A stretch of 42,353 bases of DNA from Flavobacteriales bacterium UBA6772 (GTDB taxonomy: Bacteria > Bacteroidota > Bacteroidia > Flavobacteriales > UBA7430), in contig CAJJAI010000045.1 of the NCBI GenBank assembly GCA_905182215.1, forward strand, positions 1-42,353. Direction: 5' to 3'. Shown here piece by piece: positions 15,969 to 38,950 of the stretch (positions are counted from its first letter, which is position 1; the number at the start of each line of letters is the position of its first letter). Under the pieces are notes generated by a model. It was given only the letters and a program-made list of their open reading frames with translations. It was not told where the DNA came from and did no database searches. Position numbers and translations under genes: made by a program.

Positions 15969-16511
15969 ATGAAAAAAACTTATCTAAGTTTATTCTTTTT
16001 ATTCTCTATCTGCCTAATTTCTAGCTTAAACGCTGTGATTGTAGCTCAAGATACGATTGACTTTTCCTTTGAAAGAACAGGCCCAAATCATTCTGTTTTG
16101 GTGTTGCCTTTATGGCATCCTGTGATAAGTAAGTTGCAAGAAAGCGATTCTTTAGATCCTGAAATGATTTTAGGTTTTAAAAATGACTCTTTAGTATCTG
16201 GAGATCGAGTAGGTATTTTCTTTACCGATAATTTAGGAAATTACAAATGTGCAAGTTCTGCAATTTGGAAATCAAACGATTTTAATATGCTTCCAGTTTG
16301 GGGTATTTATCCACCAGGTGCAGATAACGGAATGGAAATGGGCGAACGCATGATTTGGTTAGCCCAAAAACAAGATAATTCAATTTACGAAATTGAATGT
16401 ACGTATCAAAAACCATTAATGGCAATTTACATAAAAGATGGCGCTTCGGCAGTTTTAGGAATGGAACTCAAGAAAAGTACGCTTATCTCATCATTGCCAC
16501 TTCAAAAATAA
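15969..16511 (+). CDS. Secreted single-module protein related to the N-terminal modules of the giant proteins
   Basis: A 180-residue protein with a signal peptide (about 1-27, ending VIVAQ). The mature part follows the same order of motifs as the repeated modules of the giant genes. Here it reads FERTGPNHSVLVLP, GDRVGIFFTDNLGNYKC, an aromatic segment ending LPVWGIYPPGADNGM, then GERMIWLAQKQDN and IYEIECTY. In the downstream gene at 41075 it reads NTGANMTLFVTP, GDLIGVFYTNDTGMLVC, IPVFGDDTTTDEIDG, EDLVLMAQ, YNVSATY. I therefore call it a stand-alone copy. It lacks the GCTD repeats and a sorting domain. It ends 29 bases before the giant gene, so the two are probably one operon. The function is unknown; a cap or initiator for surface fibres is one possibility. 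Confidence 0.8.
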   Translation: MKKTYLSLFFLFSICLISSLNAVIVAQDTIDFSFERTGPNHSVLVLPLWHPVISKLQESDSLDPEMILGFKNDSLVSGDRVGIFFTDNLGNYKCASSAIWKSNDFNMLPVWGIYPPGADNGMEMGERMIWLAQKQDNSIYEIECTYQKPLMAIYIKDGASAVLGMELKKSTLISSLPLQK

Positions 16512-16540: not shown

Positions 16541-19500
16541 ATGAAAAATACTCTACTCTTTTCACTGTTTGTTTCTTTGTTTTGCATCTCACTGCAAACT
16601 TCCGCACAATGCGATTTTCCCGATTCTTTTTCTGGGAATACAGGAGCTAACATGACCGTAATGCTAACGCCTGATTTGATAACATCTTTGAATGTTACCA
16701 ATTCAGATGCTTATGTTGTTGCTTTAAATTCTTCAGGAATTGTAATTGGATCTGTGCCAATTGATGGTTTAAATCAAACTTCAATAGCAATTTGGGGCGA
16801 TGATAGTTCAACTACAGATGTAGTTGATGGTGCACTAGCTAATGAGCTTATTAGTTTCCAATTAGTAGATGGAATCAGACTCTACGATGTTGAGATGCCT
16901 TCCTCAGTTGTTTATGCTACTAATGGCTTGTCTCTGCAAACTGCTGCTGCTGCTGTAACTTTAAATTGTGAACAGGAAGTTGTAGCTTGTTTTTTGCCAT
17001 CTGTTTTTAATGGGAACACAGGAGCAAACATGACTGTAATGCTTACCCCTGCTTTAATTAGTTCTTTACCGATAACAGATGAAAACGCATATGTTGTAGC
17101 TATTGGTGTTAGCGGAGTAGTAGTTGGTTCTGAATTAGTCTATGGTGTTACTCAAACAACCATTGCACTTTGGGGTGATGACACCCAAACAGTGGAAGTT
17201 GATGGAGCTGGAGCTGGAGAATTTGTTTCTTTTCAGCTAATTGATGGTGCAGATTTATATGATGTTGGAATGCCTTCACCTGTTAGTTATTCTACAAATG
17301 GTTTAGCTGTTCAAGGGGCTCCGACAACAGTAACATTTGTTTGTGAAGCAATTTTAGGTTGTACAGACTCTACCGCATTGAATTATGACCCTATCGCTAC
17401 TGGAGATGATGGCTCTTGTATTGCTGCTATTTTAGGTTGTACAGATTTAGCGTCTGCTAACTACAATGAGAGTGCTAATACAGACGATAGTTCTTGTGTT
17501 GGTTTCTGTGAGGATTGGTTTATGCCTTTCTCAGCTGAAAATCAAACGGTGAATTCTACTAGTATATTACTTTCTGAAGAATACGTATTATCTCTAAATG
17601 CACAGTCTCCTTCGGCATATATTGTTGGAGTAACTCCTGCTAATTTGGTAGTTGGTTCTAGTGTTATTGGACAAACGACTCAACAGCTAGCTCTTTGGCC
17701 AAATGACATTCAATCCACCGAAATAAATGGTGCTCAAGATGGAGAACTGATAAGTTTTTATCTGATAGATGATGAAAGTGTTTACTTACTTTCTTACGAT
17801 TATATATTTGTTACTATGGGCTTTGTGAATGTTTCTACTGAAGAAACCCCAGTCCTTTCGTGCATTGCAAATACTCCTTTTGGTTGTACAGACAATATCG
17901 CTTGTAATTTCGATGCAAGTGCCAATACCGATGATGGTTCTTGTGAATATGTAGATGGGATTTGTGATTCCTGTGTAGATGGTTTAATTGTAGACAACGA
18001 TTCCGATAATGACGGATTGTGTGATAATGAAGATACATTAAGTGGATGTACAGATGAATCAGCTTGTAATTATAATTCATCTCCAACAATAAATTCAGAA
18101 CCTGCTTTATGTTTATTTGTCGATGTTATTTGTGAGTCATGTTCTTTAGATGAAAATGGTGATGTCTTTACTGATGGTTCGGGAGAAATTGTTGATAACG
18201 ACTCAGATGATGACGATATATGTAACGATAATGAAGTTGTAGGTTGTCAAGATGTGCTTGCTTGTAATTATATGGTTTTAGCTACTGATTCAGCTTTATG
18301 TATTTATTCTACAGATTTAGATCCTTGTGCTACATGTTCAGTAGATGAAAATGGGGATGTCTTTACAGATGGAACTGGGGCAATTGTAGACAACGATTTA
18401 GATGATGATACCGTTTGTAACTCCGCAGAAATTGCAGCTTGTCAAGATGCATTGGCCTGTAATTATAATGAAAACTCAACTGATTCAGATGGTTCTTGTA
18501 TTTATTCTACTGACTTAGATGCTTGTGCTTCTTGTTCAGGTGAATTAGACGGAACAGGATTAATAGTAGACAATGATTCTGATGAAGATACCGTTTGTAA
18601 TGAAGATGAAATAGTAGGTTGTGAAGATTTGATTGCTTGTAACTATAATAATCAGGCTACCGACTCTAATGGCTCTTGTATTTATTCTACAGACTTAGAT
18701 TCCTGTGCTTCTTGTTCAGGTGAATTAGACGGAACAGGAATAATAGTAGACAATGATTCTGATGAAGATTCAGTTTGTAATGAAGATGAAATAGTAGGTT
18801 GTGAAGAATTAGCCGCATGTAATTATAATGAGTTTGCAACCGATTCTGATGCTTGTGTTTATTCTACTGATTTAGACGAATGTGCTACTTGTTCTGGTGA
18901 ATTAGATGGGACTGGAAGTATTGTTGATAATGACTTAGATGATGATTCAGTTTGTAACTCATCTGAAATTATTGGTTGTACAGATATTGAGGCTTGTAAT
19001 TACGATTCTAACTCTACCACAGATACAGATAATAGTTTATGTGTATATATTGACGGCTGTCAGGAATGTTCAGGAGAGATAGATGGTTCTGGGACTATAT
19101 TGGATATTGACCCTAGTATTTGTGCTTTCACTATACAAGAAACGTTGAGCTTAGTATACGATGAGGTATCATCGGATAATGAAGTTTTTGTTTCTAACTT
19201 AATTGATATGTTAGAGACCCAATTAGATTTACCTGAAGGCTCTGTACAGATCATAGAGGTTATTATCAATGAGGTAAGAGCTTTTAGTGTAGATGTCATT
19301 TATGAAATTATTTTAACTCAGGAGCAAATTGAGGTTCTTAATCTAACTCCTGAACAAATAGCTCAAAACATAGCAGATGATGTTAATCAACTTACTCTAG
19401 TTTTAGAAAATGCAGGAAGTAGTTTTGAGTTTGTTGAAGGCTGTACCAATTTTGAGGCAAATAATTTTAACGAGTTAGCAAACATCGATGACGGTTCTTG

Positions 19501-22500
19501 TGAATTTACAAACCCTGGTTGTGGGGTGCAAGGAGCGTGTAATTACAATCCTGACTTAGATGCTCAGTATTCTGACTTTAATTTATGTGTATTTGTACCT
19601 GTTAATAATTACTGTGCAGACTCTTTAGTTGGAGACTCTGTAGTGTTTTACGACGGTGGATGTTTAAACGACACTAATTTAGACGGTATTTGTGATGAGA
19701 CGCAAGTAGTAGGATGTACTCAAGAAAATGCTTTTAATTATAATAGTTTAGCTGTACTGGATGATGATTCATGTATAGACAAAGTATTAGGATGTATAGA
19801 AATTTCCGCATGTAACTACAGTCCCTCAGCTAATACAAACGACGAGACTTGCGAGTATCCTGAAGAAAATTACGATTGTACTCAAAATTGTTTGATTGAT
19901 TCTGATAACGATGGAATCTGTGATCAACTAGAAATTGCAGGCTGTACTAATTCAATTGCTAGTAATTATAATCCACTAGCTACAGATGATAATTTTAGCT
20001 GTGAAGTAATAGAAGCTTGTGGTGATTCTAATTATTTAGAGTACAGTTTTAACTCTGATGTAATTAATAATAACCTATGTATTACCTTAATTGTTCAAGG
20101 TTGTATGGATACACAAGCATGTAATTACAATCCTTTGGCAAATGCTAGTCTTGTTGTTTACGATTCTTTAGGGGTTTATTTAGGGTCTAGTTGTGTAGAA
20201 ACTCAAGCGTACTATAATTGTAATGGAGATTGTAGTAACGATACCGATTACGATGGAATATGCGATGAAAATGAAATTATTGGTTGTCTAGAACTCACTG
20301 CCTGTAATTACAATGAATTTGCTACTGATAGTGGAGAATGTACTTTTGCTTCAGAGAATTACGATTGTAATCAGGAATGTTTATCAGATATAAACCTTAA
20401 CGGAGTTTGTGATGAACTAGAGTTAGAAGGCTGTATAGATCAAGATGCTTGTAATTACAATGAGTTTGCTAGCATTACAGATACACTTTATTGTGAATAT
20501 CCGATGGCTACTAATTTAAATTGTCAGGGAGATTGCATCGACGATATTGATGCTGATGGAATATGTGATGGTATAGAAGTTAATGGCTGTGGGAACGAAC
20601 TGGCTATTAATTATAATCAATATGCAACAAATAATATAGAAGGAATTTGTGAGTTTTTAACTGGTTGTACAGATCCATCTATGTTTAACTTCAACGCACT
20701 CGTAGTAGTAGCAAATAATAGTACTTGTATACCATTTGTTCAAGGATGTTTAGATCCACTTTACTTAGAATACAATGTACTTGCAAACCAAAACAATGCT
20801 ACATGTACGCAACTGATAGTAAGTGGTTGTAGCGATATAGCAGCCGTTAACTATAGTAGTTACGTAAATGTAGAAGATTACTCTTGTCAGTACTCCCTAA
20901 TAGTAGGTTGTATGGATTCCGCTTATCTTAATTTTTCTCCATATGCCGTACTCGCAGACCCTAGCATGTGTGGAGAACTAATCGTTTATGGTTGTACTAA
21001 TTCAGAATACTTAGAATACAATCCACAAGCAACAGTAGAAAATGGAACTTGTTTAGAATACCCATATGCAGGTTGTACAGATGAGAATTTCTTAGAATAT
21101 AACCCTTATTATAATACATCGTTAGATGGAGCATGTGTTACTATCCAAATTTCTGGTTGTATGAATGCTGATGCTTATAATTACAATCCAGTTGCAACTA
21201 TTTATCTAGAAGAAGAAGATCCATGTATTTTATTTGGATGTACTAATACTGCTTTTGCTGAGTATTATACCCAAGGATATATTGCCACTAATAGTATAGG
21301 CGGTTCTTGCGTGCAAACAGCTGTTTTTGGTTGTACTAATCCTATTGCCTTAGCAGGGTCTTATAACTCTTTTGCGAATGTAAATCAAATAAGTGCTGAG
21401 GATGCCGACTCTCCATGTATATATAATACGGGGTCTATAGTAAACTTCGAAATCAATAATACAGGGAGTAATATGTCTATTCTTATTCCTTATCAGGTAG
21501 TGTTATCCGGTGATTTTTCTAATATCAATTCAATACCTGATGGATCTTTGATAGGTGCTTTTTATTCTTCTGGTGGTCAAACAACTTGTGGAGGTTTCGA
21601 TTTATGGAATAAAGAGCAGGATATATTAAACAATATTAATAATGTAGGTATAGAAGTTTATGGTGATGATGAACTTACCACTACTGTAGATGGGTTTGTT
21701 GCAGGTGAAAGTATGCAATGGATGTTGCTAACACCTGATGGATTGCTTTATTCAGTATCTCCAGTGTATAACACCAATGCTTCCAGTGGGTCTGGAACTG
21801 GAAACTCATATGTAACAGATGGATATTCGGTGATGATACTTTTGGACATTAACTTTATGTATCAAATGCCTGTTTTAGGTTGTAGAAATTCTATGTTCTT
21901 AGACTATAACCCAAATGCATCTATTGATGGAATTGGTGGATTTGATAACGGTGAGCCTTTTCAAGATTTGATAAACAATCAAACTTTTTTAGCTATAGCA
22001 GATGGTTTAGATGATGATAATATGTATGATATAAATGGAGATGGACAGGCTAATCCTGGCTGCTTTATATTGAGTGCATATGGTTGTATGAATACTTTAG
22101 CATTGAATTTTAATGCATCTGCTAGTATACCAGACGATTCTTGTATTCCTGTAATTGAGGGCTGTTTAGATGAAAGTGCATTTAATTATATTCTTCCTAT
22201 TGGAAACGAGAATATAGATGTAAATGTTCATAACTCTGAAATCTGTATTCCTAAAATTATGGGTTGTCTTTCGGATGTCTATGCATTTAACTTTATAGCT
22301 CCTGTTGGAGATCCTGCTTTAGATGTAAATACTCCGGTACAGTGTATTCCAGTAATAGAAGGTTGTACAGATCCACTCGCATTTAATTATAATTTTATTG
22401 TTAGTGAAGCTGCCATAATTATTGCAACTGGTAATCCTTTTACAACCGCTAATACAGAGTTTATACCCTCGGTTTGCATTCCTAGAGTATATGGATGTAC

Positions 22501-25500
22501 AGATGTAAATGCTTATAACTTTAATGAATTAGCCAACACAAATAGTGTTCATTTCGAAACGGGCGCAAGTACATGTTACCCTGTTTTAGAAGGATGTACA
22601 GATGCAACTGCTTTAAATTATCAGTCAGACGTTAACAATACATTTATAGATGTTAATACACCTGCAGACTCTTTATGTATTTTTGAAATTAAGGGTTGTA
22701 CAGATCCTACAGCTCTCAATTATAATAACCAAGCAAATCTAGATGACAATTCTTGTATAGGTAAAGTATACGGTTGTACAGATATAACACAAATAAATTA
22801 TAATCCTACTGCAAATGTAGAATTCGAAGGTGCTTGTATTCCTGAAATTGAAGGTTGTTTAAATGATGAAACAGCATTTAATTACATTACACCTACTGGT
22901 AACCCATATATTGATGTTAATACGCTGTCTATATGTGTTCCAATAGCACTCGGATGTACAGATGTAAATGCACACATAAATTCCTATTCTTCAATTGCAA
23001 ATACTGATAATGGTTCTTGTTACTACGCTCCAGGTTGTACTGAAGAAGAATTCTTAACTTATTGGATTCAAGATTTCTTATCAGACTATAATGACGGTTC
23101 ATGTGGAGAAGAATTAGTTGATTTTTACTGTACAGATGAATGGTATTTAGAATATTTTGCTGAACCAGAATTTGGTTCTGAATTAGCTTCAGGAAACTTT
23201 TCTCATATTTCTGCCTGTCAAAATGAATTGGTTACTTATTGTAACAACAGCGAATCTATAAGTTACTTCCCTACATTTAATGTTGCAGATGGAAATTCTC
23301 AGCAGGTATTGAATGGTAATTTCGCTTCGTCTGAATCTGATGTATGTAGCGATATTCAGATAGTAGCATTTTGTAACGACTCTAATTTCTCACAATATTA
23401 CGGACAAAACAATTCTGTTGCAGGTAACAATGCAAAAGAGGATGGAGGTAATGTAATGGACAATACTTTATGTATAAGTCCCATTGATTTTTATTGCGAC
23501 GATAGTAACTCTTTAGCATACTATGCATTTGATGAAAATCTGAATGACTTTAGTGTCCTTTTAATAGACACTGGAAATGTACTCGATGTATCTCTTTGCA
23601 GCATCGTTGTAAGCCCTTATTGTAACGATTCCGAAAACACTAGTTATTATAATAACACCAATGTTATTGGTGGACTTGCAGCTGAGAATGGAAACTTAAT
23701 TGACAATACTTCTTGTATTGGAGATTCTGTAGTATTCTATTGTAACGACGATACAAAAATTGGCTATTATAATTTAGAAGTTAATTTAGCAGAAGGTTCT
23801 CAAGAACAATTAGTAGGTTCTATTATTAACGATGCTGTTTGTGAACAAGAGGTTATTCGATACTGTAATAATTTAGATTATGTTGAGCATTATTCTGAGC
23901 TAGCGAGTTTAACCATTTTAAATACAGATTTATGGAACTTGGTAGACTATAGTTTATGTTCTACTGAAGTAGTATTTGGATGTATGGATAACTCCATGTT
24001 CAACTATAGTGAACAAGCCAATGTTGATGCTCTTAATTATGAAACTCTAATTTCAACTTGTTATCCTATTATAGAAGGTTGTACAAATACAAGCGCATTT
24101 AATTATAACGATTACGATAACAACGGTTCGCTAAATGAATACAATACACAAGACTCTACTTTAAATATTAATACGCACATTTTAGAACTTTGCGTGCCTG
24201 TTATCGAAGGATGTTTAAGTGCTCCATCTGCGTTTAACTACCCAACATTTACTGGGAATTCTCAAACGGATGTAAACACCAACAATAGCGATTTATGTAT
24301 TGATGTTATTGTGGGATGTATGGACGAAACTGCTTTTAACTTTAGTCTTGTAGCGAATACTCCTGACCCTATTTCTTGTGAGCCTGTTGTAATAGGTTGT
24401 GTGGAATCTGATGCCTTTAACTACAATTCACAAGCAAACACTGCCGATAATTGTATCGACATTGTTTATGGTTGTACAAATTCGATCTCTTTGAATTTTT
24501 ATGCAAATGCAAATACTGATAATGGTAATTGTATAAATGTTGTTTTTGGTTGTAATGATAATGGAGAAGCGTTTTTAGATATAGTTATTAATACAACTGG
24601 AGAGTTAGGTGAAGATGGAATTGATGATGACTACCAATATGATATTGATTCTGATGGTTTAGTCGCATTTAACTATTACGAACAAGCTACTTTTACATTA
24701 AATTGCATTGCTACCTTACCAGGTTGTCTCAATCCAATAGCTTTTAATTTTAACCCACAAGCAAATATTTCTAACAACTCTTGTATACCTGTTGTTAAAG
24801 GTTGTACAGATGTATTTGCTGTCAACTTCAACCCGGATGCAAATACAGAGTTTAGCCCATCTAATTGTGAAGAGGCTATTGAAGGGTGTTTGAATCAAAA
24901 TGCCCTAAATTATAATTGCATCAATGGTGACTATCCTATTTGTTATCCTAATTGTACTATAGAAGATGACTTGTTCTGTAGCGATTCTGATGTGAATAGT
25001 GACAATCAGAGTTCTTGTATTATCATTATACCTGGTTGTACAGACTACAATTCAATTAATTATATTCCAGAATTAAATGCTAATGTTGACAATGGTAATT
25101 GCGCCTCTATTGTATTTGGTTGTACTAATCCAAATTCTTTAAATTACGATCCTACTGCTAATACTAATGATTATTCTTGTCAATTAGCTGTTGAAGGATG
25201 TATTGATAACGGAGAAGCGTTTTTAGATGCAGTTAATAATATTACTGGAGAAGAAGGTGCTGATGGTATAGATGATGATTATCAATACGATGTAGATGAA
25301 GATGGAATTCAAGCTCTAAACTTTAATACATCCGCCAATTTTTACAATTATACGGGTGTTGAGTATGAGTTTGCATGTGTTAAAAAAATATTTGGATGTA
25401 CCAATGTGCTCGCAATAAACTATAGCATTGAAGCTACTATTTCTAACGGGTCTTGTATATCTGAAGTTGTTGGGTGTATTGACAATGGACAAACATTTTT

Positions 25501-28500
25501 AGATGAATATAACAATATTACTGGCGAAGTTGGCGGGGACGAAGTAGATGATGATTACCAATGGGATTTAGATGAAGATGGGGTGCAAGCACTAAATTAC
25601 AATCCATCGGCTAACAGTAACAATGGTTCTTGTTTAGCCTTAACCTACGGATGTATGGTTGAAGGGTCCTTTAACTACAATCCAAATGCTACTATTTCCA
25701 ATGGTTCTTGTGTATCCATTATTATAGGTTGTACAACTGCTTCATCTCTTAACTTTAATCCTATTGCAAACACCGAAAACGGTTCATGTATAGAGATTAT
25801 ATATGGTTGTTTAAATGAGTCTGCTATAAACTATGAACCAAATGCTACAGTTGCAGATGGTTCCTGTATTGCTGTAGTAAATGGATGTACAGATATATTA
25901 GCCTTAAACTACAATGCCAATGCGAATATTGATAATGGTTCTTGTGTGATTATTGTATACGGTTGTATGAACGAATTGGCAACCAACTATAATTTAAACG
26001 CTACTGTGGCAGATGGGTCTTGTATTCAACAAATACTTGGTTGTACAATAGAGGGTTCTTTAAATTACAATCCTAGTGCAACAACAGACAACAATTCTTG
26101 TGTAGCAATAATTGAAGGTTGTATGAACGAACTTGCGTTCAACTATGATTTAAATGCAAATGTTGCCGATGGTTCTTGCGAGCCTGAAGTCGCTGGTTGT
26201 ATGGACCAAAATGCGATTAACTTTAATGCATCAGCTAATATTGAAAATGGTTCGTGTGTAGATGTGATTGCTGGTTGTAATAATCCTATAATGTATAACT
26301 ATAACGAACTGGCTAACACTAATGACGGTTCTTGTATTGTAACGATAACTGGTTGTATGGATGTTGAAGCATTTAACTTTAATGAAAATGCAAATACAGA
26401 GTTAGAACCTTCAAATTGTGAAGATGTAGTATATGGTTGTATGCTTAACCTTCCATTTATTTGTAATTATAACTCTTTAGCCAATGTAGACGATAATTCT
26501 TGCGAAGCTTCCTCTTGTGCAGGTAGAGCGAGTTTACGCTCATTTGCCAGCCCAGTATGTGTGGATCCAATTGCAGAAAATTATTTTTCACTATTAGATT
26601 CTATTACCCCATCTACCGACTGGGCTACTAGTTACTTTAATCCAGATGCAGCTAGTTATCAGGCTGATTGGGGAAATCAGTATTATATAGATAATACTAC
26701 ATGTAACTATATAGAAGGCTGTACCGATGTTGATATGTTGGGTTATAATTCAAATGCCACTTTAGATGATGGTTCTTGTACCCCTTATGTATATGGCTGT
26801 GATGATATTGAATATGTAGAATACAACGAAAACGTAAATACATCAGATAATTCTTGTTTCACTCTTAAAGTTTTTGGTTGTAACGATGTAAACTCGTTTA
26901 ACTACGATAATTTAGTAACCGTACTTGGGGTAGATGTTAACAACGATTACATTGCAGACTCATTATCAAATGAGCTTACTAATCCGTGTGTCGACATTGT
27001 TTATGGATGTACAGATGTTAATTATGTCGAGTATTGGTATTCTTACGATACTATATCAAATTCATTAGTTGCTGTAAGTCCACTTCCAAATACACAATAC
27101 TATACTACAGAAGGAGAATCTATTTCGTGTATTAACTTATTGACTTTAGGTTGTACCGATTCTGAATATCTTAACTATTGGACATTGGATGAAAACACTC
27201 AGATTAATGAGCCAGATCCAATTCCTAATTTAGACAATGGTTCGTGTATCGATCTATTAGTTTTAGGTTGTTTTGATGCCGAATACTTAGAGTACAATGC
27301 CAATGCCAATGCAGATCAGTTTCTTTCGGCTGATATTCCCTCCATGTGTATTACTCCAAAGGTTGACGGTTGTACCAGTCCTGATTATATGGAGTATAAC
27401 TCTTTAGCTAATTACGACGATGGTACTTGTGATGTGCTAATTGTAGAAGGTTGTTTAGACAATACTTATATTGAATATTGGCAATTTATTGCTGATACGG
27501 AAACTGGTATTTACGAATTATTTAATCCAGTAAATAGTCCTAATATAGATGACGGTTCTTGTTCGGAACTAATTGTAAGAGGGTGTAATATAGAAGCTGC
27601 AGATAATTATTACTTAAACTTTCTAGAACTAATTAACACAGTTAATGTTCTAGACAATAGTGTTTGTTTGGGTATTGTTGGCTGTATGAATAGTAATGCT
27701 TCTAATTACAATCCACTAGCAGTTTCTCAAGGTGATTGTGCCGGTTGTACAAATACCGATGCTCTTAACTGGAACGATTGGGCAACTACAGACGACGGTT
27801 CTTGTGAGGTTTTAGGGTGTACCGATGATGGTTCATTAATTATTGACGACTTCAATAACAGTACTGGCGAACTAGGAACTGATGGAGTGGATGACGATGG
27901 TATTTATGATCTCGATGAAAATGGCCTTGCTGCAGCTAATTACAATGTTGAAGCTACAATAAACGATTTATCTTGTATAGCATCTATACTCGAAGGTTGT
28001 ACAGACCCACTCGCTTTTAATTACTGTGAGGAATGTAATGTTGATGATGCCTCTTGTATACCTGAGGTTGTTGGTTGTACCGATTCATTGTATGTAGAAT
28101 TCTACGATTGGACATTTAATGCTGACACTAGTTACCAAATCTCAAACTTTAATATTAATCCAAACACAGAGGATGGTTCTTGTACTCATTTAGTAGAGGA
28201 GGGTTGTACCTTATTTGACTATGTAGAATTTAATACGGAATCTAATGTGTATTCTGCTGATTCTTGTACTACTATTAAGGTATTAGGGTGTTTAGATCCA
28301 TTGTATTTTGAGTCTACAGAGGGCGATTACAATGCAACAGTTTACGACACTATTCCAGCTACTCAGTTTCACGTTGACAATGATTTAGCCACAACTATTG
28401 GTGAAGATGTAATCGTAGACATTTTCTGTTTTACTTTCCAAGTGGATGGCTGTATGGATGCTAACTATTTAGAATACGATGAAACTGCTACCGTAGACGA

Positions 28501-31500: not shown

Positions 31501-34500
31501 AAACGTAAACAATGGTTCTTGTATAGAAATGATACTAGGATGTACCGATTCGGATTTCCTTGAATATTGGAATTACGATACCGAATTAATGGCACTGTCA
31601 ATTTTAGCTGATCCAGCCAACACGAATACAATTCCGAGTAGTTGTTTAACAAATATTAATATTGGTTGTACAAACTCTAATTATGTAGAAGCTTATAACA
31701 ATACACAAGTAAGTGGTTATTACTTCCTAAATGGATTGAATACCGATATCAATGTATCGTTCTCATCTGCTTGTGTAACAGAAATTGTAAGCGGATGTAT
31801 TTACAATGCATTTATCGAGTTTAATCCTGCAGCAAATGTATTTGCTCTGGATGACTGTGTGTATATTATTGACAATGTATGTACAGATACTTTGGCAGAT
31901 GATTATTTAGAAGCTTCCCTAATTAACTCAACTTATTCAGCAGAAGGTAATAGTTATATTTACCAAGAAGACAATTCTTTATGTAACTATACTGGGTGTA
32001 TGAATAATGCATTTATTGAGTATCAGGAATATTATACTGTACCAGATCAAGATGCTTGTCAGACTTACAAAGTTGTAGGTTGTACAGACGCTGCATATAT
32101 TGAAAGTTATGTAGACAATATTTATAATGAGGAAAATGGAATGTATATACTAGGGGAACTCAGCCCTTATATAAACTATACAGATTATACCCATTGTATT
32201 ACACCAATTATAGAAGGATGTACAACTTGGTATTATTCAGAATTCAATCCTAATGTAAACGTCGAAAACAACTCTTTGTGTCTTGAAACAGCTATTTTTG
32301 GTTGTAGTGATTCACTAGCAGATAATTTTGACCCTACTGCTAATTTTATTGAGGACGGAATTTTAAATTACAATGATGTGCATTGCGTCTATGAAGGTTG
32401 TACTAATCCAAATTATACCGAGTACTGGGATTATGCACTCAGTACGCAACAAATTTCTACTCCAGTTATAATTGCGACAGATGATGATGGATCTTGTGAA
32501 ACACTTATTGTATTTGGATGTACAGAAGAAAACGAAATGTTTAATTTCGATGAGACATCAAATGTTAACCAAACGAGTTCTACAGATCAGACTTCCTTAT
32601 GTATAGAAAACATAGTTGGTTGTACCAACGAATTGTATGTAGAATACAACTCACTTGCCAATATTGAAAGTGGCTTGTGTAGCGTATTTGTTGTTGCAGG
32701 TTGTACCAATTCGCTTTCCATAAATTACAATCCTTTAGCGAATACAAACGATGGTTTTTGTATAGACAAACATCAAGGTTGTGCAGATAATGGTTTAGCC
32801 TTTGAAGATCTAATAAATAACCTAACAGGCTTAGTAGGGTCTGATGGTATTGATGACGATTATCAATACGATTACGATTTTGATGGAATGGCTGCTTTCA
32901 ACTACGATTCTACTGCCAATGTAAACGTTTTCTGTGAAGCCCTTGTTTATGGTTGTATCGATTCTGAGAAGTTCAATTTCAATTCTCAAGCAAATATCGA
33001 TGATGCATCGTGTGTTCCAGTTATTGAAGGTTGTTTAAATGTGGATTTCTATAACTACAACGATTACGACTACGATGGAGCTCCAAACGAAATTACAGGA
33101 GATCCATTTATAGATATCAACACAAACAATCCTGTTTACTGTGAACAACAACAATTAGGTTGTATTGATGATTTAGCAATAGGAATTGATGGGACTCCAG
33201 TAGCAGATAACTTAGATGCGAATGCGAATACAGACAATGGTTCGTGTATCTACTATGGATGTACGGAAGTTGAAGCTGATAATTATCAAATTTGGGCTAC
33301 CAATACAGGTGTAATTAATAACTGTTTATACAATGGTTGTACCGACCAAAATGCCTTTAACTACAATGAACAAGCCAATTTCAATGACGGTTCTTGTATC
33401 GCTAGTGTTGAAGGTTGTGTTAACACTTCTTTTGTTGAATACTGGGATTTCGACCCTCTTTCAAATACAATTAGTCAAGCAGAAGCAGTACCAAATGTAA
33501 ATAATGGAACTTGTTTAACATTTGTTATTTTTGGCTGTACCAATTCATCGGCAACAAATTACAATGCATCTGCGATTGTTAATCAAGTTAGTTTCGAAGA
33601 CGAATCTACGCCTTGTATTCCTTATGTGTTTGGTTGTACAGTAGATACTATGTTTAATTACAATCCGCTAGCAAATACTGCTGATGGTACTTGTATAGAG
33701 AATATAGAAGGATGTATGAATCCATTGGCTATAAATTACAATTCAGATGCCAATGTAAGTGTAAACTGTATTTTACCTATTTACGGTTGTACAGACGAAA
33801 CGGCATTTAATTTTGATGCTGATGCACAAGAAGATGATGGTTCTTGTATCCCAGTAATTGAAGGTTGTGTAAATCCATTTGCCCTAAACTACAATCCAGA
33901 TGCGAATACCAACAATGGATCTTGTGTTGCATTTTTAGGTGGTTGTATGGATCCTACTGCGCTTAACTATTCTTCTTATGCAACCTTCGACAGTGGAAAC
34001 TGTATAGAAGCAATTCCTGGTTGTACTAATATTTACGCAAATAACTACAGCCCTGCGGCAAACCAATATGATGGATCTTGTACCTATGGTTCACCCGTTG
34101 TGTTTGGTTGTATGGTTAGTATAGCTACTAACTATGATCCTTTAGCTACAGTAGATGATAGTTCTTGTGAGTTTGATTTTGGTATTAGATCTATGATTGA
34201 CACCATCTGTATTGATTCATTAGCAGTAAATGTTCATCCATTAGTAAATTATCCGGATGCACTAGCTGATGGTATTGAATTAGGTTCTATTGTTGTAGAC
34301 AATGAAACTTGTGAATATCAATATGGATGTACAAATATTACTGCAATCAATTACAATCCTTCTGCAACAATAGATGATGGCTCTTGTATTCTTGATGCTG
34401 TTTATGGTTGTATGGATACGGAGTATTTAGAATACAATTCTGAGGCTACTATAGACACAGATCCAAGTACATGTTCTAACCTAATTGTAACGGGTTGTAC

Positions 34501-37500
34501 AGATCCAACGGCATCTAACTATAACCCTCTAGCAAATGTATCTGATAATGCTTCTTGTGAGTATAACTTAACGCTGGGATGTACAGATGCTGACTATGTT
34601 GAATATTGGGCATACGACGAGAATACATACTTACTATCTGTCCCAGATAGTGTTGCTACTCAAGATGATGGTTCTTGCCAAACGCTAATAGTGTTTGGAT
34701 GTGTAGATGTTGATGCTTATAACTACGATGCAAGTGCAAACGTAAATCAAACAACTACCCAGAATCAAACGTCTACTTGTATCGCAAAAGTTTACGGTTG
34801 TATGGACGCTTCTATGTTTAACTATAACTCAGAAGCCAATACAGAAAATGATTCTTGTATAGAGTTTGTTTATGGTTGTATGGTTGCTGCTTATGTTGAG
34901 TTTAATGATTTGGCAAATACAGATTACGCTACTAGTTTATGTATGACTATTCACATAGAAGGATGTACAGATGCTACTGCATTAAATTATAATGATGAAG
35001 CTACTTTAGATGATGGTTATTGTATTGATGCTGTATATGGTTGTATGGATGCTGGAGCAATTAACTACGAGGAACTTGCTAATGTTAACGACGATTCATG
35101 TATCTACCAAAGCTTAGGTTGTACAGATGTAAATGCGGCGAATTACAATGTTAACGCTAATACGGATGATGGTTCATGTTACGGTTGTACTGTAGCTTAT
35201 GCTGTTAACTTCTGTTCTACATGTGAAATTGCTCAGAACACATTCTGTGTGATTGAGGGCTGTACTGATAGCAACATTATAAACTACGATCCTGAGGCTA
35301 CTACCGATGATGGGTCTTGTAACCCATTTGCTACTGAAGTATACGGTTGTACAGATGACTTATACCTAGAGTACTACAGTTACGAGAGTACAGGTGTTTA
35401 TACCTTAAATGGTTTTGCGACTTATATGGGAGTTCAAATAAACACAGACAACGGTACTTGTGAAACCTTAATCAACACAGATTGTACAGATGCCGATGCT
35501 TGTAATTATAATATTATAGCGAACGTAGATTCTGGAAACTGTAATCTCCCTGTTAATTGTGATTCTTGTTCAGGCGAACAAGATGGTACAGGTACTGTTG
35601 TAGACAGCGATTCGGATAACGATGGTCTTTGTGATGCTCAAGACACAGTCTTTGGGTGTACAGATGAAGATGCGTGTAATTATAATGCTTCTCCAACAGT
35701 AAATACCGACAACGATTTATGTACATATACAGATGGTATATGCGATACTTGTGTTGATGGTGTTGTTATAGATAACGATGTAGATAACGATGGTGTTTGC
35801 GACTTGGATGAAATTGTAGGTTGTCAAGATGTACTTGCTTGTAATTATATGGTTTTAGCGACTGATTCAGATTTATGTGTTTATTCTACAGATTTAGATG
35901 TTTGTGCTACCTGTTCGGGAGAACAAGACGGAACTGGAACGATTGTAGATAACGATGATGATAACGACGGTGTTTGTAACTCAAACGAAATAGTAGGATG
36001 TCAGGATCTAGAAGCTTGTAATTATAATGAAAATGCTACCGATAGTGATGTTTGTATTTACTCAACAGATTTAGATGCTTGTGCTACCTGTTCTGGGTAT
36101 CAAGATGGAACTGGAACGATTGTCGATAACGATGATGATAACGACGGTGTTTGTAATTCAAACGAAATAATAGGATGTCAGGATCTAGGAGCTTGTAATT
36201 ATAATGAAAATGCTACCGATGGTGAAGATTGTATTTACTCTATAGACTTAGATGAATGTGCTACATGTTCGGGTGCGCAAGACGGAACAGGAACTATTGT
36301 AGATAACGACATTGACAACGACGGTGTTTGTAATGATATCGAAATAGTAGGATGTCAGAATCCAGAAGCTTGTAACTATAATGCTTTTGCTACAGAAGCA
36401 GGTGCTTGTGAATTAGCAAATGCGATTTGTTCTACTTGTGAGGATGGAGCAGTTGTGATTTACGATATAGATAACGATGGTTTATGTGATGCTCAAGACA
36501 CCCTCTTTGGCTGTACTGAAGAGGATGCTTGTAACTATAATAATTCATCAACAGTAAATACCGATAATTCAATTTGTGTTTACACAATTGATGATTGTGA
36601 TACTTGTTCAGGCGAAGAAGATGGAACCGGAACTGTAGTTGACAACGACCAAGATAATGATGGTTTATGTGATGTTCAAGACACAATCTCTGGGTGTACT
36701 GATGAGACGGCTTGTAACTACAACTCATCAACTACTATAAATACCGATAATAGTATTTGTGTTTATGAAGTAGCTGATTGTGATACTTGTTCAGGAGAGC
36801 AAGATGGTACTGGTGTAGTTGTTGACAATGATCTTGATGACGACGAGGTTTGTGATGATGATGAAATTATTGGCTGTCAAGAAATATTAGCTGATAATTA
36901 TAATGAATTCGCTACTGATGCAGGAGACTGTATTTATTATGGTTGTATTGATGATGAAGCTTGTAATTACCTCTTTAGCGCAAACACTGATAATGGTTCT
37001 TGTACATATGTTACCGATGTATGTGAGTCTTGTGTAAACAATTTGGTTGTAATTATTGATACCGATAACGATGGTCTTTGTGATTTCTTAGATGTCGTTA
37101 GCGCTTGTATAGATCAAGATGCTTGTAATTATAACAACTCAACTACTGTAAACGAAGACAACAACTCTTGTATTTATGTAACTGAAATTTGTGATGTTTG
37201 TTCAGGTGAAGAAGACGGAACAGCTACTGTTGTTGATAATGATGTGGACAACGATGGTGTTTGTGACTTAAATGAATTGACCTCTTGTATAGATGTCAAT
37301 GCATGTAATTATAACAACGATCCAACTATAGACTCTGATAATACATTATGTATTTATGCTTCCGACTTAGATGCTTGTGCATCTTGTTCTGGAGCTTTAG
37401 ATGGTACTGGAATTATTATTGACAATGATGATGACAATGATAGCGTTTGTAATGATGACGAAGTTGTTGGTTGTGATCAAGAATGGGCTGATAATTACAA

Positions 37501-38950
37501 TGTATTTGTTACCGACCCTGATGACTCTTGTATTAGACAAGGTTGTATGGTTGACTTTATGTTTAACTACGACTCATTAGCTACCTACGATATGGGTGGA
37601 TGTATTTCTGTTATTATAGGATGTTTAGACCCTGAAGCCGATAATTACAGCGAGCTTGCAAATACTGCTGGCTTATGTAATTATACAGGTTGTATGGACT
37701 CATTGTATCCTAACTACGATTCTATTGCTAATATTGCAGGCGAGTGTATATTATATGGTTGTACTACAGAGGGTATGTTTAACTACGAACCATTAGCTAC
37801 TCATAACGATGGCTCTTGTATTGAAATTGAAATCGGTTGTATGGACCCTGTTGCAGATAACTATATCGAGTCTGCCAATACTCCTGATGATTGTGAATAT
37901 ATAGGTTGTATGGATTCTTTAGCAGATAACTATTACGATTTAGCAAACGTTCCAGACGAATGTATTTTCTATGGTTGTATGAATGAGAGTGCTTGTAACT
38001 ACGATGAGTTTGCAGATACGCAACTAAATAATTCATGTGAGTTCCCAGAGCAATATTACAACTGTGATTCTACTTGTATTCTAGATACAGATAATGATGG
38101 GGTTTGTAACGAATTCGAAATATTTGGTTGTACTGATACTGTTGCTGAGAACTACAATCCTTTAGCAACTCAAGAAGACGGTTCTTGTTACTCAGAACTT
38201 CAAGTTGATTTATCAGTTATAGATGCTGTTTGTAATGGCGGTAGTGGTTCAGTACAGTTAACTATAAGCGGAGGTTTAACACCAATTACTGTAGTAAGTT
38301 ATACCACGTACCAAGCAAATCAAACTATTCAAGTAGCAGATGCGATTGTTACTATAAGTAATGTTCTTTCAAATAGTGAAACAGACGTATCGACTTATAG
38401 TGTATATGTAAGCGATGCGAATGGTAATGGTGACTTTTATCCGTATACTATAGAGCAACCAGAGGTGTTATTTGAAATGACTTTAGACTACGATCAAGAA
38501 GACTCTGAACTGTCATTCGATTCTAACTCAAATACGACTAACTTCATTTGGTCCTTTGACGATGAGCAAATCATGGGGGCAAATAACCCTGAGTTAGCGT
38601 TAGACTCTAACGGAGTTTATGGATTGTATCTTACCGATGAGTATGGTTGTACTTTATATTTAGAGTATGAAGTTAAGGATATTGGAATAGAAGAACACGA
38701 TGCTAAAGCATTGAAGGTCTATCCTAATCCAGCAAACGATTTTATTACCGTTGAGTCGAACCTATTCTTAGGTGCAGATTCCGAAATAAAATTATATGAC
38801 CTAATCGGTAACTTAGTCTTGAATCATAAAGTAGATAACTCTCAGTTTGAACCTCAGCGAATAGATGTTTCTGGCTTAAGTGAAGGAACTTATATTGTGT
38901 CTGTGTTAAATGGTACTAAAAGTGTTTATACACGAATTGTTATTCATTAA
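16541..38950 (+). CDS. Giant T9SS-secreted protein of about 180 two-cysteine repeats (7,469 aa)
   Basis: One uninterrupted frame. The start is ATG 16541, giving signal peptide residues 1-23 (ending LQTSAQ). Layout by residue: modules of the NTGANMT type at 24-149, 150-272 and 323-447, and another at about 1631-1779; TSP3-like Asp-rich blocks mixed with ACNYN repeats at 448-860 and 6314-6976; a non-repeat helical insert at 861-966; a variant YCND array at 2193-2479; GC(T/M)D..A.NYN...DDGSC repeats nearly everywhere else (about 177 by eye, most 25-50 residues); a SprB-like domain with AVCNGGSGSVQLTISGG from about 7220; an Ig/PKD-like segment; and a T9SS type A sorting domain at 7390-7469 (KVYPNPANDF...). 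Each repeat offers one Cys pair. The protein is rich in Asn, Asp and Cys and poor in Lys and Arg. Role inferred: surface fibre or adhesin. Confidence 0.93.
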   Translation: MKNTLLFSLFVSLFCISLQTSAQCDFPDSFSGNTGANMTVMLTPDLITSLNVTNSDAYVVALNSSGIVIGSVPIDGLNQTSIAIWGDDSSTTDVVDGALANELISFQLVDGIRLYDVEMPSSVVYATNGLSLQTAAAAVTLNCEQEVVACFLPSVFNGNTGANMTVMLTPALISSLPITDENAYVVAIGVSGVVVGSELVYGVTQTTIALWGDDTQTVEVDGAGAGEFVSFQLIDGADLYDVGMPSPVSYSTNGLAVQGAPTTVTFVCEAILGCTDSTALNYDPIATGDDGSCIAAILGCTDLASANYNESANTDDSSCVGFCEDWFMPFSAENQTVNSTSILLSEEYVLSLNAQSPSAYIVGVTPANLVVGSSVIGQTTQQLALWPNDIQSTEINGAQDGELISFYLIDDESVYLLSYDYIFVTMGFVNVSTEETPVLSCIANTPFGCTDNIACNFDASANTDDGSCEYVDGICDSCVDGLIVDNDSDNDGLCDNEDTLSGCTDESACNYNSSPTINSEPALCLFVDVICESCSLDENGDVFTDGSGEIVDNDSDDDDICNDNEVVGCQDVLACNYMVLATDSALCIYSTDLDPCATCSVDENGDVFTDGTGAIVDNDLDDDTVCNSAEIAACQDALACNYNENSTDSDGSCIYSTDLDACASCSGELDGTGLIVDNDSDEDTVCNEDEIVGCEDLIACNYNNQATDSNGSCIYSTDLDSCASCSGELDGTGIIVDNDSDEDSVCNEDEIVGCEELAACNYNEFATDSDACVYSTDLDECATCSGELDGTGSIVDNDLDDDSVCNSSEIIGCTDIEACNYDSNSTTDTDNSLCVYIDGCQECSGEIDGSGTILDIDPSICAFTIQETLSLVYDEVSSDNEVFVSNLIDMLETQLDLPEGSVQIIEVIINEVRAFSVDVIYEIILTQEQIEVLNLTPEQIAQNIADDVNQLTLVLENAGSSFEFVEGCTNFEANNFNELANIDDGSCEFTNPGCGVQGACNYNPDLDAQYSDFNLCVFVPVNNYCADSLVGDSVVFYDGGCLNDTNLDGICDETQVVGCTQENAFNYNSLAVLDDDSCIDKVLGCIEISACNYSPSANTNDETCEYPEENYDCTQNCLIDSDNDGICDQLEIAGCTNSIASNYNPLATDDNFSCEVIEACGDSNYLEYSFNSDVINNNLCITLIVQGCMDTQACNYNPLANASLVVYDSLGVYLGSSCVETQAYYNCNGDCSNDTDYDGICDENEIIGCLELTACNYNEFATDSGECTFASENYDCNQECLSDINLNGVCDELELEGCIDQDACNYNEFASITDTLYCEYPMATNLNCQGDCIDDIDADGICDGIEVNGCGNELAINYNQYATNNIEGICEFLTGCTDPSMFNFNALVVVANNSTCIPFVQGCLDPLYLEYNVLANQNNATCTQLIVSGCSDIAAVNYSSYVNVEDYSCQYSLIVGCMDSAYLNFSPYAVLADPSMCGELIVYGCTNSEYLEYNPQATVENGTCLEYPYAGCTDENFLEYNPYYNTSLDGACVTIQISGCMNADAYNYNPVATIYLEEEDPCILFGCTNTAFAEYYTQGYIATNSIGGSCVQTAVFGCTNPIALAGSYNSFANVNQISAEDADSPCIYNTGSIVNFEINNTGSNMSILIPYQVVLSGDFSNINSIPDGSLIGAFYSSGGQTTCGGFDLWNKEQDILNNINNVGIEVYGDDELTTTVDGFVAGESMQWMLLTPDGLLYSVSPVYNTNASSGSGTGNSYVTDGYSVMILLDINFMYQMPVLGCRNSMFLDYNPNASIDGIGGFDNGEPFQDLINNQTFLAIADGLDDDNMYDINGDGQANPGCFILSAYGCMNTLALNFNASASIPDDSCIPVIEGCLDESAFNYILPIGNENIDVNVHNSEICIPKIMGCLSDVYAFNFIAPVGDPALDVNTPVQCIPVIEGCTDPLAFNYNFIVSEAAIIIATGNPFTTANTEFIPSVCIPRVYGCTDVNAYNFNELANTNSVHFETGASTCYPVLEGCTDATALNYQSDVNNTFIDVNTPADSLCIFEIKGCTDPTALNYNNQANLDDNSCIGKVYGCTDITQINYNPTANVEFEGACIPEIEGCLNDETAFNYITPTGNPYIDVNTLSICVPIALGCTDVNAHINSYSSIANTDNGSCYYAPGCTEEEFLTYWIQDFLSDYNDGSCGEELVDFYCTDEWYLEYFAEPEFGSELASGNFSHISACQNELVTYCNNSESISYFPTFNVADGNSQQVLNGNFASSESDVCSDIQIVAFCNDSNFSQYYGQNNSVAGNNAKEDGGNVMDNTLCISPIDFYCDDSNSLAYYAFDENLNDFSVLLIDTGNVLDVSLCSIVVSPYCNDSENTSYYNNTNVIGGLAAENGNLIDNTSCIGDSVVFYCNDDTKIGYYNLEVNLAEGSQEQLVGSIINDAVCEQEVIRYCNNLDYVEHYSELASLTILNTDLWNLVDYSLCSTEVVFGCMDNSMFNYSEQANVDALNYETLISTCYPIIEGCTNTSAFNYNDYDNNGSLNEYNTQDSTLNINTHILELCVPVIEGCLSAPSAFNYPTFTGNSQTDVNTNNSDLCIDVIVGCMDETAFNFSLVANTPDPISCEPVVIGCVESDAFNYNSQANTADNCIDIVYGCTNSISLNFYANANTDNGNCINVVFGCNDNGEAFLDIVINTTGELGEDGIDDDYQYDIDSDGLVAFNYYEQATFTLNCIATLPGCLNPIAFNFNPQANISNNSCIPVVKGCTDVFAVNFNPDANTEFSPSNCEEAIEGCLNQNALNYNCINGDYPICYPNCTIEDDLFCSDSDVNSDNQSSCIIIIPGCTDYNSINYIPELNANVDNGNCASIVFGCTNPNSLNYDPTANTNDYSCQLAVEGCIDNGEAFLDAVNNITGEEGADGIDDDYQYDVDEDGIQALNFNTSANFYNYTGVEYEFACVKKIFGCTNVLAINYSIEATISNGSCISEVVGCIDNGQTFLDEYNNITGEVGGDEVDDDYQWDLDEDGVQALNYNPSANSNNGSCLALTYGCMVEGSFNYNPNATISNGSCVSIIIGCTTASSLNFNPIANTENGSCIEIIYGCLNESAINYEPNATVADGSCIAVVNGCTDILALNYNANANIDNGSCVIIVYGCMNELATNYNLNATVADGSCIQQILGCTIEGSLNYNPSATTDNNSCVAIIEGCMNELAFNYDLNANVADGSCEPEVAGCMDQNAINFNASANIENGSCVDVIAGCNNPIMYNYNELANTNDGSCIVTITGCMDVEAFNFNENANTELEPSNCEDVVYGCMLNLPFICNYNSLANVDDNSCEASSCAGRASLRSFASPVCVDPIAENYFSLLDSITPSTDWATSYFNPDAASYQADWGNQYYIDNTTCNYIEGCTDVDMLGYNSNATLDDGSCTPYVYGCDDIEYVEYNENVNTSDNSCFTLKVFGCNDVNSFNYDNLVTVLGVDVNNDYIADSLSNELTNPCVDIVYGCTDVNYVEYWYSYDTISNSLVAVSPLPNTQYYTTEGESISCINLLTLGCTDSEYLNYWTLDENTQINEPDPIPNLDNGSCIDLLVLGCFDAEYLEYNANANADQFLSADIPSMCITPKVDGCTSPDYMEYNSLANYDDGTCDVLIVEGCLDNTYIEYWQFIADTETGIYELFNPVNSPNIDDGSCSELIVRGCNIEAADNYYLNFLELINTVNVLDNSVCLGIVGCMNSNASNYNPLAVSQGDCAGCTNTDALNWNDWATTDDGSCEVLGCTDDGSLIIDDFNNSTGELGTDGVDDDGIYDLDENGLAAANYNVEATINDLSCIASILEGCTDPLAFNYCEECNVDDASCIPEVVGCTDSLYVEFYDWTFNADTSYQISNFNINPNTEDGSCTHLVEEGCTLFDYVEFNTESNVYSADSCTTIKVLGCLDPLYFESTEGDYNATVYDTIPATQFHVDNDLATTIGEDVIVDIFCFTFQVDGCMDANYLEYDETATVDDGSCSDIKIEGCTELNSINYDATANLDDGSCIAIVEGCTDQFAFNYNELANTENGSCIEIIYGCPDSAYLEYYNYNALTFLLDTLPDYLAYNTDAYTGASYCVNPIIEGCTDTDFIEYYDYDATNFAVTYKVDIANVNDGSCITPMISGCIDDSYLEYNSLTNVHLEGACQVLKVEGCTDQEYLEYWNYDTVNFELNEPLEFINFDDGSCSTLVSVGCLNPLADNYLEYEGLANVNDVSLCEGGFGCLSPQYLSYNESYIGHDQSECTTFKVFGCIDTTAYNFDVLANINGVDTLGGFDFFPDTNIDGFVIDPCYPFILGCIDPTAFNFTPLVGDNSLDVNTNDSSCYAIIEGCTDSTSFNFISLTNDVSIDVNTDDNSCYPVKEGCLDLDAYNYNDWSGDGVADVFVSAASQNINTNVESTCIAKIFGCMDVTKFNYSDSANTQETSLEDPTSPCIDFAYGCINDTMFNFDVNANTNQVSEFDLNNPCYVIILGCLDVLADNYIQPISDSLVDVNTEDGSCEYFGCMNYTAINFDTNANVNDGSCIISGCTIDFYPNYNPAATHDDGSCSNAIFEVYGCIDSTYIEYYVYNASILSISAEEQIVTIDNGTCITPIVIGCSINTMFNYEPNVNVADDSNCIDIVEGCTDDSYIEYWNYDVLSMTLSTPVELANTDNGTCLTPIISGCTLVGDDQFEALANVYDTLACLVEGCMDPNYLEFDLAVTLANVVFCITPVIEGCTDSAFIEHYNIEAYNAETETYLLSNKENLPNTNDGTCANEIVTGCYYQYFVNYNSNVNVYNFSDVPNSYEDGTTILDLCGAPLVTGCTDSTAYNYNPIANVEAICLYEGCTLPFAFNYDKNADIDDGSCMPFIAGCTVSLFLNFNPEANIDDGSCSNSPIIYGCTDSLYFEYNSLATHNSIPTSCITLHVIGCMDVNAETWDPTATIHDNTLCTDEIISGCTSSFYLEYIPLATISNLLACITPVVNGCTIENSTNYEPTANVNNGSCIEMILGCTDSDFLEYWNYDTELMALSILADPANTNTIPSSCLTNINIGCTNSNYVEAYNNTQVSGYYFLNGLNTDINVSFSSACVTEIVSGCIYNAFIEFNPAANVFALDDCVYIIDNVCTDTLADDYLEASLINSTYSAEGNSYIYQEDNSLCNYTGCMNNAFIEYQEYYTVPDQDACQTYKVVGCTDAAYIESYVDNIYNEENGMYILGELSPYINYTDYTHCITPIIEGCTTWYYSEFNPNVNVENNSLCLETAIFGCSDSLADNFDPTANFIEDGILNYNDVHCVYEGCTNPNYTEYWDYALSTQQISTPVIIATDDDGSCETLIVFGCTEENEMFNFDETSNVNQTSSTDQTSLCIENIVGCTNELYVEYNSLANIESGLCSVFVVAGCTNSLSINYNPLANTNDGFCIDKHQGCADNGLAFEDLINNLTGLVGSDGIDDDYQYDYDFDGMAAFNYDSTANVNVFCEALVYGCIDSEKFNFNSQANIDDASCVPVIEGCLNVDFYNYNDYDYDGAPNEITGDPFIDINTNNPVYCEQQQLGCIDDLAIGIDGTPVADNLDANANTDNGSCIYYGCTEVEADNYQIWATNTGVINNCLYNGCTDQNAFNYNEQANFNDGSCIASVEGCVNTSFVEYWDFDPLSNTISQAEAVPNVNNGTCLTFVIFGCTNSSATNYNASAIVNQVSFEDESTPCIPYVFGCTVDTMFNYNPLANTADGTCIENIEGCMNPLAINYNSDANVSVNCILPIYGCTDETAFNFDADAQEDDGSCIPVIEGCVNPFALNYNPDANTNNGSCVAFLGGCMDPTALNYSSYATFDSGNCIEAIPGCTNIYANNYSPAANQYDGSCTYGSPVVFGCMVSIATNYDPLATVDDSSCEFDFGIRSMIDTICIDSLAVNVHPLVNYPDALADGIELGSIVVDNETCEYQYGCTNITAINYNPSATIDDGSCILDAVYGCMDTEYLEYNSEATIDTDPSTCSNLIVTGCTDPTASNYNPLANVSDNASCEYNLTLGCTDADYVEYWAYDENTYLLSVPDSVATQDDGSCQTLIVFGCVDVDAYNYDASANVNQTTTQNQTSTCIAKVYGCMDASMFNYNSEANTENDSCIEFVYGCMVAAYVEFNDLANTDYATSLCMTIHIEGCTDATALNYNDEATLDDGYCIDAVYGCMDAGAINYEELANVNDDSCIYQSLGCTDVNAANYNVNANTDDGSCYGCTVAYAVNFCSTCEIAQNTFCVIEGCTDSNIINYDPEATTDDGSCNPFATEVYGCTDDLYLEYYSYESTGVYTLNGFATYMGVQINTDNGTCETLINTDCTDADACNYNIIANVDSGNCNLPVNCDSCSGEQDGTGTVVDSDSDNDGLCDAQDTVFGCTDEDACNYNASPTVNTDNDLCTYTDGICDTCVDGVVIDNDVDNDGVCDLDEIVGCQDVLACNYMVLATDSDLCVYSTDLDVCATCSGEQDGTGTIVDNDDDNDGVCNSNEIVGCQDLEACNYNENATDSDVCIYSTDLDACATCSGYQDGTGTIVDNDDDNDGVCNSNEIIGCQDLGACNYNENATDGEDCIYSIDLDECATCSGAQDGTGTIVDNDIDNDGVCNDIEIVGCQNPEACNYNAFATEAGACELANAICSTCEDGAVVIYDIDNDGLCDAQDTLFGCTEEDACNYNNSSTVNTDNSICVYTIDDCDTCSGEEDGTGTVVDNDQDNDGLCDVQDTISGCTDETACNYNSSTTINTDNSICVYEVADCDTCSGEQDGTGVVVDNDLDDDEVCDDDEIIGCQEILADNYNEFATDAGDCIYYGCIDDEACNYLFSANTDNGSCTYVTDVCESCVNNLVVIIDTDNDGLCDFLDVVSACIDQDACNYNNSTTVNEDNNSCIYVTEICDVCSGEEDGTATVVDNDVDNDGVCDLNELTSCIDVNACNYNNDPTIDSDNTLCIYASDLDACASCSGALDGTGIIIDNDDDNDSVCNDDEVVGCDQEWADNYNVFVTDPDDSCIRQGCMVDFMFNYDSLATYDMGGCISVIIGCLDPEADNYSELANTAGLCNYTGCMDSLYPNYDSIANIAGECILYGCTTEGMFNYEPLATHNDGSCIEIEIGCMDPVADNYIESANTPDDCEYIGCMDSLADNYYDLANVPDECIFYGCMNESACNYDEFADTQLNNSCEFPEQYYNCDSTCILDTDNDGVCNEFEIFGCTDTVAENYNPLATQEDGSCYSELQVDLSVIDAVCNGGSGSVQLTISGGLTPITVVSYTTYQANQTIQVADAIVTISNVLSNSETDVSTYSVYVSDANGNGDFYPYTIEQPEVLFEMTLDYDQEDSELSFDSNSNTTNFIWSFDDEQIMGANNPELALDSNGVYGLYLTDEYGCTLYLEYEVKDIGIEEHDAKALKVYPNPANDFITVESNLFLGADSEIKLYDLIGNLVLNHKVDNSQFEPQRIDVSGLSEGTYIVSVLNGTKSVYTRIVIH
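16610..17881 (+). other. Three NTGANMT-type modules at the head of the giant protein
   Basis: Three related domains of about 125 residues (16610-16987, 16988-17356, 17507-17881). They share the order NTGANMTVMLTP, AYVVAL, VIGS, T..IAIWGDD, DGA..NE.ISFQL.DG..LYDV, TNGL. The third is the most diverged (ENQTVNST at the start). Two GCTD repeats separate the second and third. A more distant copy lies at about 21431-21877 (INNTGSNMSILIP, VYGDDELTTTVDG). Confidence 0.85.
17882..19120 (+). repeat. TSP3-like/ACNYN repeat block I
   Basis: Alternating units of GC.D..ACNYN and Asp-rich VDNDSDNDGLCDNED segments, resembling thrombospondin type 3 calcium-binding repeats. Three consecutive units beginning at 18541, 18721 and 18898 (periods 180 and 177 bp) are nearly identical in DNA around the SGELDGTG...VDND part, suggesting recent tandem duplication. 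Confidence 0.85.
19121..19438 (+). other. Non-repeat insert domain (residues 861-966 of the giant protein)
   Basis: About 105 residues without the repeat pattern: CAFTIQETLSLVYD, then DMLETQLDLPEGSVQIIEV and LTPEQIAQNIADDVNQLTL. It is predicted alpha/beta, in contrast to the surrounding short cysteine repeats. I do not recognise the fold. Confidence 0.6.
23117..23977 (+). repeat. Variant YC(N/D)(D/N) repeat array
   Basis: About seven consecutive repeats in which the leading Gly-Cys is replaced by Tyr/Phe-Cys and the NYN core by a YY or YF pair (FYCTDEWYLEYF, TYCNNSESISYF, AFCNDSNFSQYY, FYCDDSNSLAYY, PYCNDSENTSYY, FYCNDDTKIGYY, RYCNNLDYVEHY). They are confined to this stretch. Confidence 0.8.
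35480..37468 (+). repeat. TSP3-like/ACNYN repeat block II
   Basis: A second array of ACNYN repeats alternating with Asp-rich DNDxDNDGxC calcium-loop-like segments, in the same unit order as block I at 17882. Three units of exactly 177 bp (starting 35924, 36101, 36278) carry nearly identical DNA (CSG.QDGTGTIVDND...). Confidence 0.85.
38708..38947 (+). other. T9SS type A C-terminal sorting domain
   Basis: The last 80 residues read ALKVYPNPANDFITVES, IKLYDLIGNLVLNHK, IDVSGLSEGTYIVSVLNG and end TRIVIH. This is the standard Por secretion tail: export across the outer membrane by the type IX system, cleavage and usually attachment to the surface. No T9SS machinery gene is in the window. Confidence 0.95.

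Follow-up and report, generated by a model that had tools for sequence, protein, structure and literature searches.

The window analysed here, 42,353 nucleotides that make up the entire contig CAJJAI010000045.1 (C45) of the Flavobacteriales bacterium UBA6772 draft genome, carries a giant gene whose product, we infer, functions as a cell-surface stalk built of disulfide-locked mini-modules (probability about 60%). Computed support for this reading comes from the intact gene, the cysteine pattern, the compact fold of the module, a match to the animal immune protein MPEG-1 (perforin-2), unit-by-unit conservation, and the presence of the secretion protein SprA. A small marine bacterium thus spends 22 kb of DNA on one secreted protein of 7,469 residues, predicted from its sequence to be located at the surface; in a genome of 1-2 Mb, such an outlay points to strong selection. 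The results provide a common but unnamed module with a probable counterpart of solved structure and with a disulfide pattern that can be tested; they also reveal an order of modules that is preserved from genus to genus, whereas the arrays of surface adhesins usually fluctuate.

The 22.4-kb frame (16541-38950, forward strand) comprises 7,469 codons without an internal stop, in agreement with the sequence-only reading of this DNA that preceded the analysis, and specifies a protein of 807 kDa (isoelectric point 4.05, net charge approximately -1195) that contains 484 cysteines (6.5%), 21% asparagine plus aspartate, and 0.6% lysine plus arginine. A further in-frame ATG is located upstream at 16397; the signal peptide is obtained with the start at 16541, and the orthologue in the related genome G008 has the same initial methionine. 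The Sec signal peptide looked for in a type A cargo of the type IX secretion system (T9SS) was recognized by eye, from inspection of the sequence alone, by its basic N-region, hydrophobic core and AQ cleavage-like site. The assignment as T9SS cargo also stands, because the C-terminal tail exceeds the curated cut-offs of both Pfam (PF18962, 1.1e-14) and NCBIfam (TIGR04183, 6e-11). The source draft genome contains 35 matches to T9SS tails and encodes the T9SS translocon protein SprA, which is present in all 12 of 12 family genomes.

In the proposed mechanism, the chain would first be exported by Sec. Folding in the periplasm would then yield about 170 tiny modules, with one cysteine pair locking each 2-Cys module and three pairs each 6-Cys module. 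Carried out by the T9SS in folded form, the chain would be fixed to the surface by its type A tail, with the N-terminal beta-sandwich domains as the distal and probably binding end and the modules determining reach and resistance. Type A tails are cleaved, and their cargo may stay anchored or go free, which leaves room for a released or matrix protein (a sheath, biofilm matrix or vesicle coat) in place of a tethered stalk, with which the product of a tandem paralogue could co-assemble; no assembly or polymerization domain was found by Pfam scans, and this alternative is considered unlikely.

The giant protein contains about 170 cysteine modules: 174 'GC' openings were counted, 166 modules with a loose pattern, and 185 stretches with a hidden Markov model at a very permissive threshold, so that the earlier figure of about 180 was fair. 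The 2-Cys module has a C-x18-C core and a linker of 6-7 residues ending in glycine (26-28 residues in total), and loop insertions ahead of the closing cysteine stretch it to about 60 residues. An extra DNDxDNDGxC loop distinguishes the 6-Cys modules (about 59 residues), most of which lie towards one or the other end of the array; the 59-mers of the second 6-Cys block are 76% identical to each other at the protein level. Neither type matches a Pfam or NCBIfam family above the cut-offs in profile searches, as had been expected of a repeat without a named family, and single-sequence searches of Pfam, NCBIfam and PDB with the whole chain identified no repeat family. Matches within the array to DUF4468 (E=0.00029) and lesser candidates fall below the cut-offs, span less than one module, and were treated as chance. 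Literature searches yielded no description of the repeat, and the motif letters gave nothing there. The 6-Cys modules resemble thrombospondin type 3 repeats in having a DxDxDG-like acidic loop beside a cysteine, but have no match to them in Pfam or PDB.

The cysteines of the giant protein appear to be paired, judging from their number and from how it changes among orthologues. Of the 173 segments between consecutive 'GC' openings, 165 contain an even number of cysteines, whereas random placement (2,000 trials) yields 80 such segments on average and 101 at most; a result so far beyond the random trials, together with collinear orthologues in four other assemblies, argues that the observation is not due to chance. 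Among these orthologues, aligned cysteines are kept at 97-99% vs 44-62% overall identity, and the cysteine number is altered in 4 of 113, 10 of 158, 2 of 72 and 9 of 111 orthologous intervals (25 of 454 in total). The difference is even in 23 of these 25, and the remaining two are adjacent values of -1 that sum to -2; in the orthologue of genome G001, for example, both extra cysteines are absent from the unit at residue 3820. Parity is compatible with pairing either within modules or between neighbours. Pairing inside each module is favoured, not proven, by the secreted protein L062 (the first 809 residues of its open reading frame), in which the two cysteines of a single module are the only ones after the signal peptide. 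The notion of disulfide-pinned beads therefore gains from parity and from coupled cysteine changes, as well as from a confident structural model of five modules.

That model, of five consecutive modules (25808-26197), was obtained with AlphaFold2 (AF2) from a 19-row alignment; its mean predicted local distance difference test score (pLDDT) is 92.9, its predicted template modelling score (pTM) is 0.52, and its strand pattern repeats every 26 residues. The sole match found by Foldseek in PDB is MPEG-1/perforin-2 (24 residues, 0.5 Å, 46% identity, E=2, probability 0.87), and MPEG-1 was also matched in a sequence profile search (E=0.007; E=0.011 with a consensus pair of modules). Both the motif and the local fold were thus recovered, each by matches that are weak alone, but taken together they make it very likely that the module shares its fold with this piece of MPEG-1 and very probable that it has a solved structural counterpart. 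By their position, the matched residues are read as the 'EGF-like' hinge of MPEG-1/perforin-2 (PDB 6u2k, 6u23, 6sb1), which has the motif GCT..N(F)N..AN.DDGSC; the giant differs in being a bacterial surface protein with about 170 tandem copies and no MACPF domain. The structures of MPEG-1 became available in 2019 and later, after the AF2 training cut-off, and so the agreement is probably not a memory of templates. The likeness could stem from common descent, transfer or convergence. Of the earlier claims about the module, the compact bead unit is upheld by the five-module model, whereas its apparent lack of precedent is revised by the MPEG-1 match.

The relatives that possess orthologues are marine-type Flavobacteriales drafts, AG-903-K14 among them, and their giants align with this one module by module (62% identity over 4,061 residues in G001 and 46% over 6,459 residues in G009, where 98% of aligned cysteines are retained, compared with 27-32% out of register, 27% for G009). 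The positional partner of a module outscores every other candidate for 83 of the 110 modules compared in G001 and for 57 of 152 in G009 (random expectation, about 1/116 or 1/178); the signal is weaker in G008 (16 of 107). By this collinearity the giant is a fixed architecture rather than a fluctuating array, although the 6-Cys blocks differ in copy number. It also bears on the scenario that repeats were collapsed or misjoined during assembly, which might be feared of a draft genome (1.26 Mb) that is 62% complete and in 62 contigs: collinear giants occur in four other assemblies, with synonymous sites that are saturated (0.58 differ at four-fold sites) and cysteines retained at 98-99%, and one of these assemblies, AG-903-K14, probably represents a single cell, judging from its name. 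An artefact is thus refuted in substance by the sequence comparisons and is barely conceivable. The giant of G010 is split into several frames, possibly by sequencing error, since its SprA gene is likewise broken.

Conserved order would be needless for bulk sequestration, which is the role envisaged if the acidic chain were a sponge for Ca2+/Mg2+ or a decoy coat that protects the cell against phages and grazers. The net charge of the chain is in keeping with such a role, and T9SS-tailed proteins bearing these modules also occur on contigs classified as viral, suggesting a role in host-phage contact; but no canonical DxDxDG loop is present in the simple modules, and this explanation is very unlikely. 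The acidic loop positions of the module, which bear on its putative calcium binding, are only moderately conserved.

A gliding adhesin, a SprB-like giant moved over the surface by the gliding motor, could be proposed from the size of the protein, its T9SS export, and a weak resemblance to the SprB repeat ahead of the tail. SprB of Flavobacterium johnsoniae is likewise a giant T9SS cargo of hundreds of kDa, but its tail is of type B whereas that of the giant is of type A, the bulk of the giant is unrelated to the SprB repeat, and the giant has no demonstrated link to gliding. The SprB-like domain claimed before the tail is weak, because PF13573 scores 17.2 bits (E=0.0039) vs a cut-off of 28 in the Pfam scan. 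Family membership lends no support to gliding in the manner of SprB, which is judged quite unlikely. The related claim of a size similar to or above that of SprB is correct (807 kDa vs 669 kDa for SprB, PMC7807042).

Several points weigh against the stalk. Its surface location, extended shape, and adhesive or contact role are inferred, with export, anchoring and extended shape following from knowledge of the T9SS. Of the five AF2 models, no more than two are confident (pLDDT 92.9 and 92.6, the others 60, 48 and 42), and a pTM of 0.52 means that the relative placement of modules in the model is not established. The N-terminal 'GNTGANMTVMLTP' domain, proposed as the binding part, has no functional match: no fold in PDB was matched at E<=0.001, and no family was found in the Pfam scan.

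The module profile matches 12 of 12 family genomes and 30 of the 60 relatives searched. Across the phylum, by contrast, it matches only 22 of 396 sampled genomes, most of these matches being to a lone module. In three secreted proteins or lipoproteins of other Bacteroidota (L061, L062, L064), which are unrelated, a single module follows directly behind the signal peptide or lipobox; the module is the same but caps another domain as one copy, with no array. It is a tentative proposal, short of even odds, that an unnamed and widespread disulfide mini-module is common to the surface giants of Bacteroidota, their phages and the animal perforin-2 hinge, and that it has here become a fixed-order scaffold of about 170 non-interchangeable modules, each position with a selected identity.

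Signal-peptide proteins with the same modules were observed on IMG/VR contigs classed as viral (L065-L085, e.g. L065, L070, L075), and those of L065 and L070 have a T9SS tail above the Pfam cut-off. Neighbouring genes on these contigs encode ribonucleotide reductase, holin-like and virion-protein-like products; a search for terminase (PF03237) found none, so the viral status of the contigs is not confirmed, and GenBank phage records gave no module match. Two proteins about 1,040 residues long, from viral contigs (L087, L088), have a single module each. Matches of the module model in BFVD include Virus NIOZ-UU157 (TM score 0.83) and an 'uncultured virus' protein whose name refers to a secretion-system sorting domain, and the weak matches include giant-virus MACPF-domain proteins. 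Residues 21-86 of the query have a short match at 65% identity in a record titled SAR86 bacterium (L059), which could be misbinned.

Features of the giant gene and its neighbours (positions in the window)
Feature	Position	Strand	Basis or remark
Small secreted protein P0003, distant relative of the inserted domains	15969..16511	+	30 bp upstream of giant
Giant T9SS cargo gene, 7,469 aa	16541..38950	+	One open frame; collinear orthologues
Sec signal peptide (MKNTLLFSLFVSLFCISLQTSAQ)	16541..16609	+	Basic N-region, hydrophobic core, AQ cleavage-like site
Three N-terminal 'GNTGANMTVMLTP' beta-sandwich domains	16610..17881	+	Alignment of copies; AF2
'GNTGANMTVMLTP' domain copies	16610-16981, 16988-17360, 17507-17881	+	Alignment
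First 6-Cys module block	17885..19054	+	Unit list; copy number varies among orthologues
Inserted unnamed domain (mostly aa 848-967)	19055..19440	+	Unit list; no Pfam family above cut-off
Central array, mostly 2-Cys modules with scattered 6-Cys modules and loop insertions	19442..35480	+	Unit list, AF2, MPEG-1 match
Inserted second-type 'NTGSNM' domain inside array	21416..21880	+	No Pfam family above cut-off
Second 6-Cys module block (DNDxDNDGxC loops)	35483..37471	+	Unit list; copy number varies among orthologues
Final modules, mostly short 23-26 aa type	37472..38185	+	Unit list
Linker region, sub-threshold PKD and SprB-repeat resemblance	38186..38710	+	Pfam scan (PF18911 E=0.0012, PF13573 E=0.0039, both under cut-off)
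T9SS type A sorting domain	38717..38947	+	TIGR04183, PF18962 over cut-off
Tandem paralogue, truncated by contig end	39248..42352	+	Signal peptide; 'GNTGANM' domains alternating with giant's modules

Beyond the unit-by-unit conservation across genera, the analysis adds to the sequence-only reading the paralogue at 39248 and the conserved upstream partner P0003. The gene order mnmA, WD40 gene, P0003, giant is found in G008, G009 and G010, and its first part, up to the contig end, in G007 and G011. All five genomes have P0003 orthologues, which adjoin the giant gene wherever the contig extends. Within the giant, two modules separate copies 2 and 3 of the 'GNTGANMTVMLTP' domain, and an AF2 model of copy 2 with two modules has a pLDDT of 89.7 and a pTM of 0.72.
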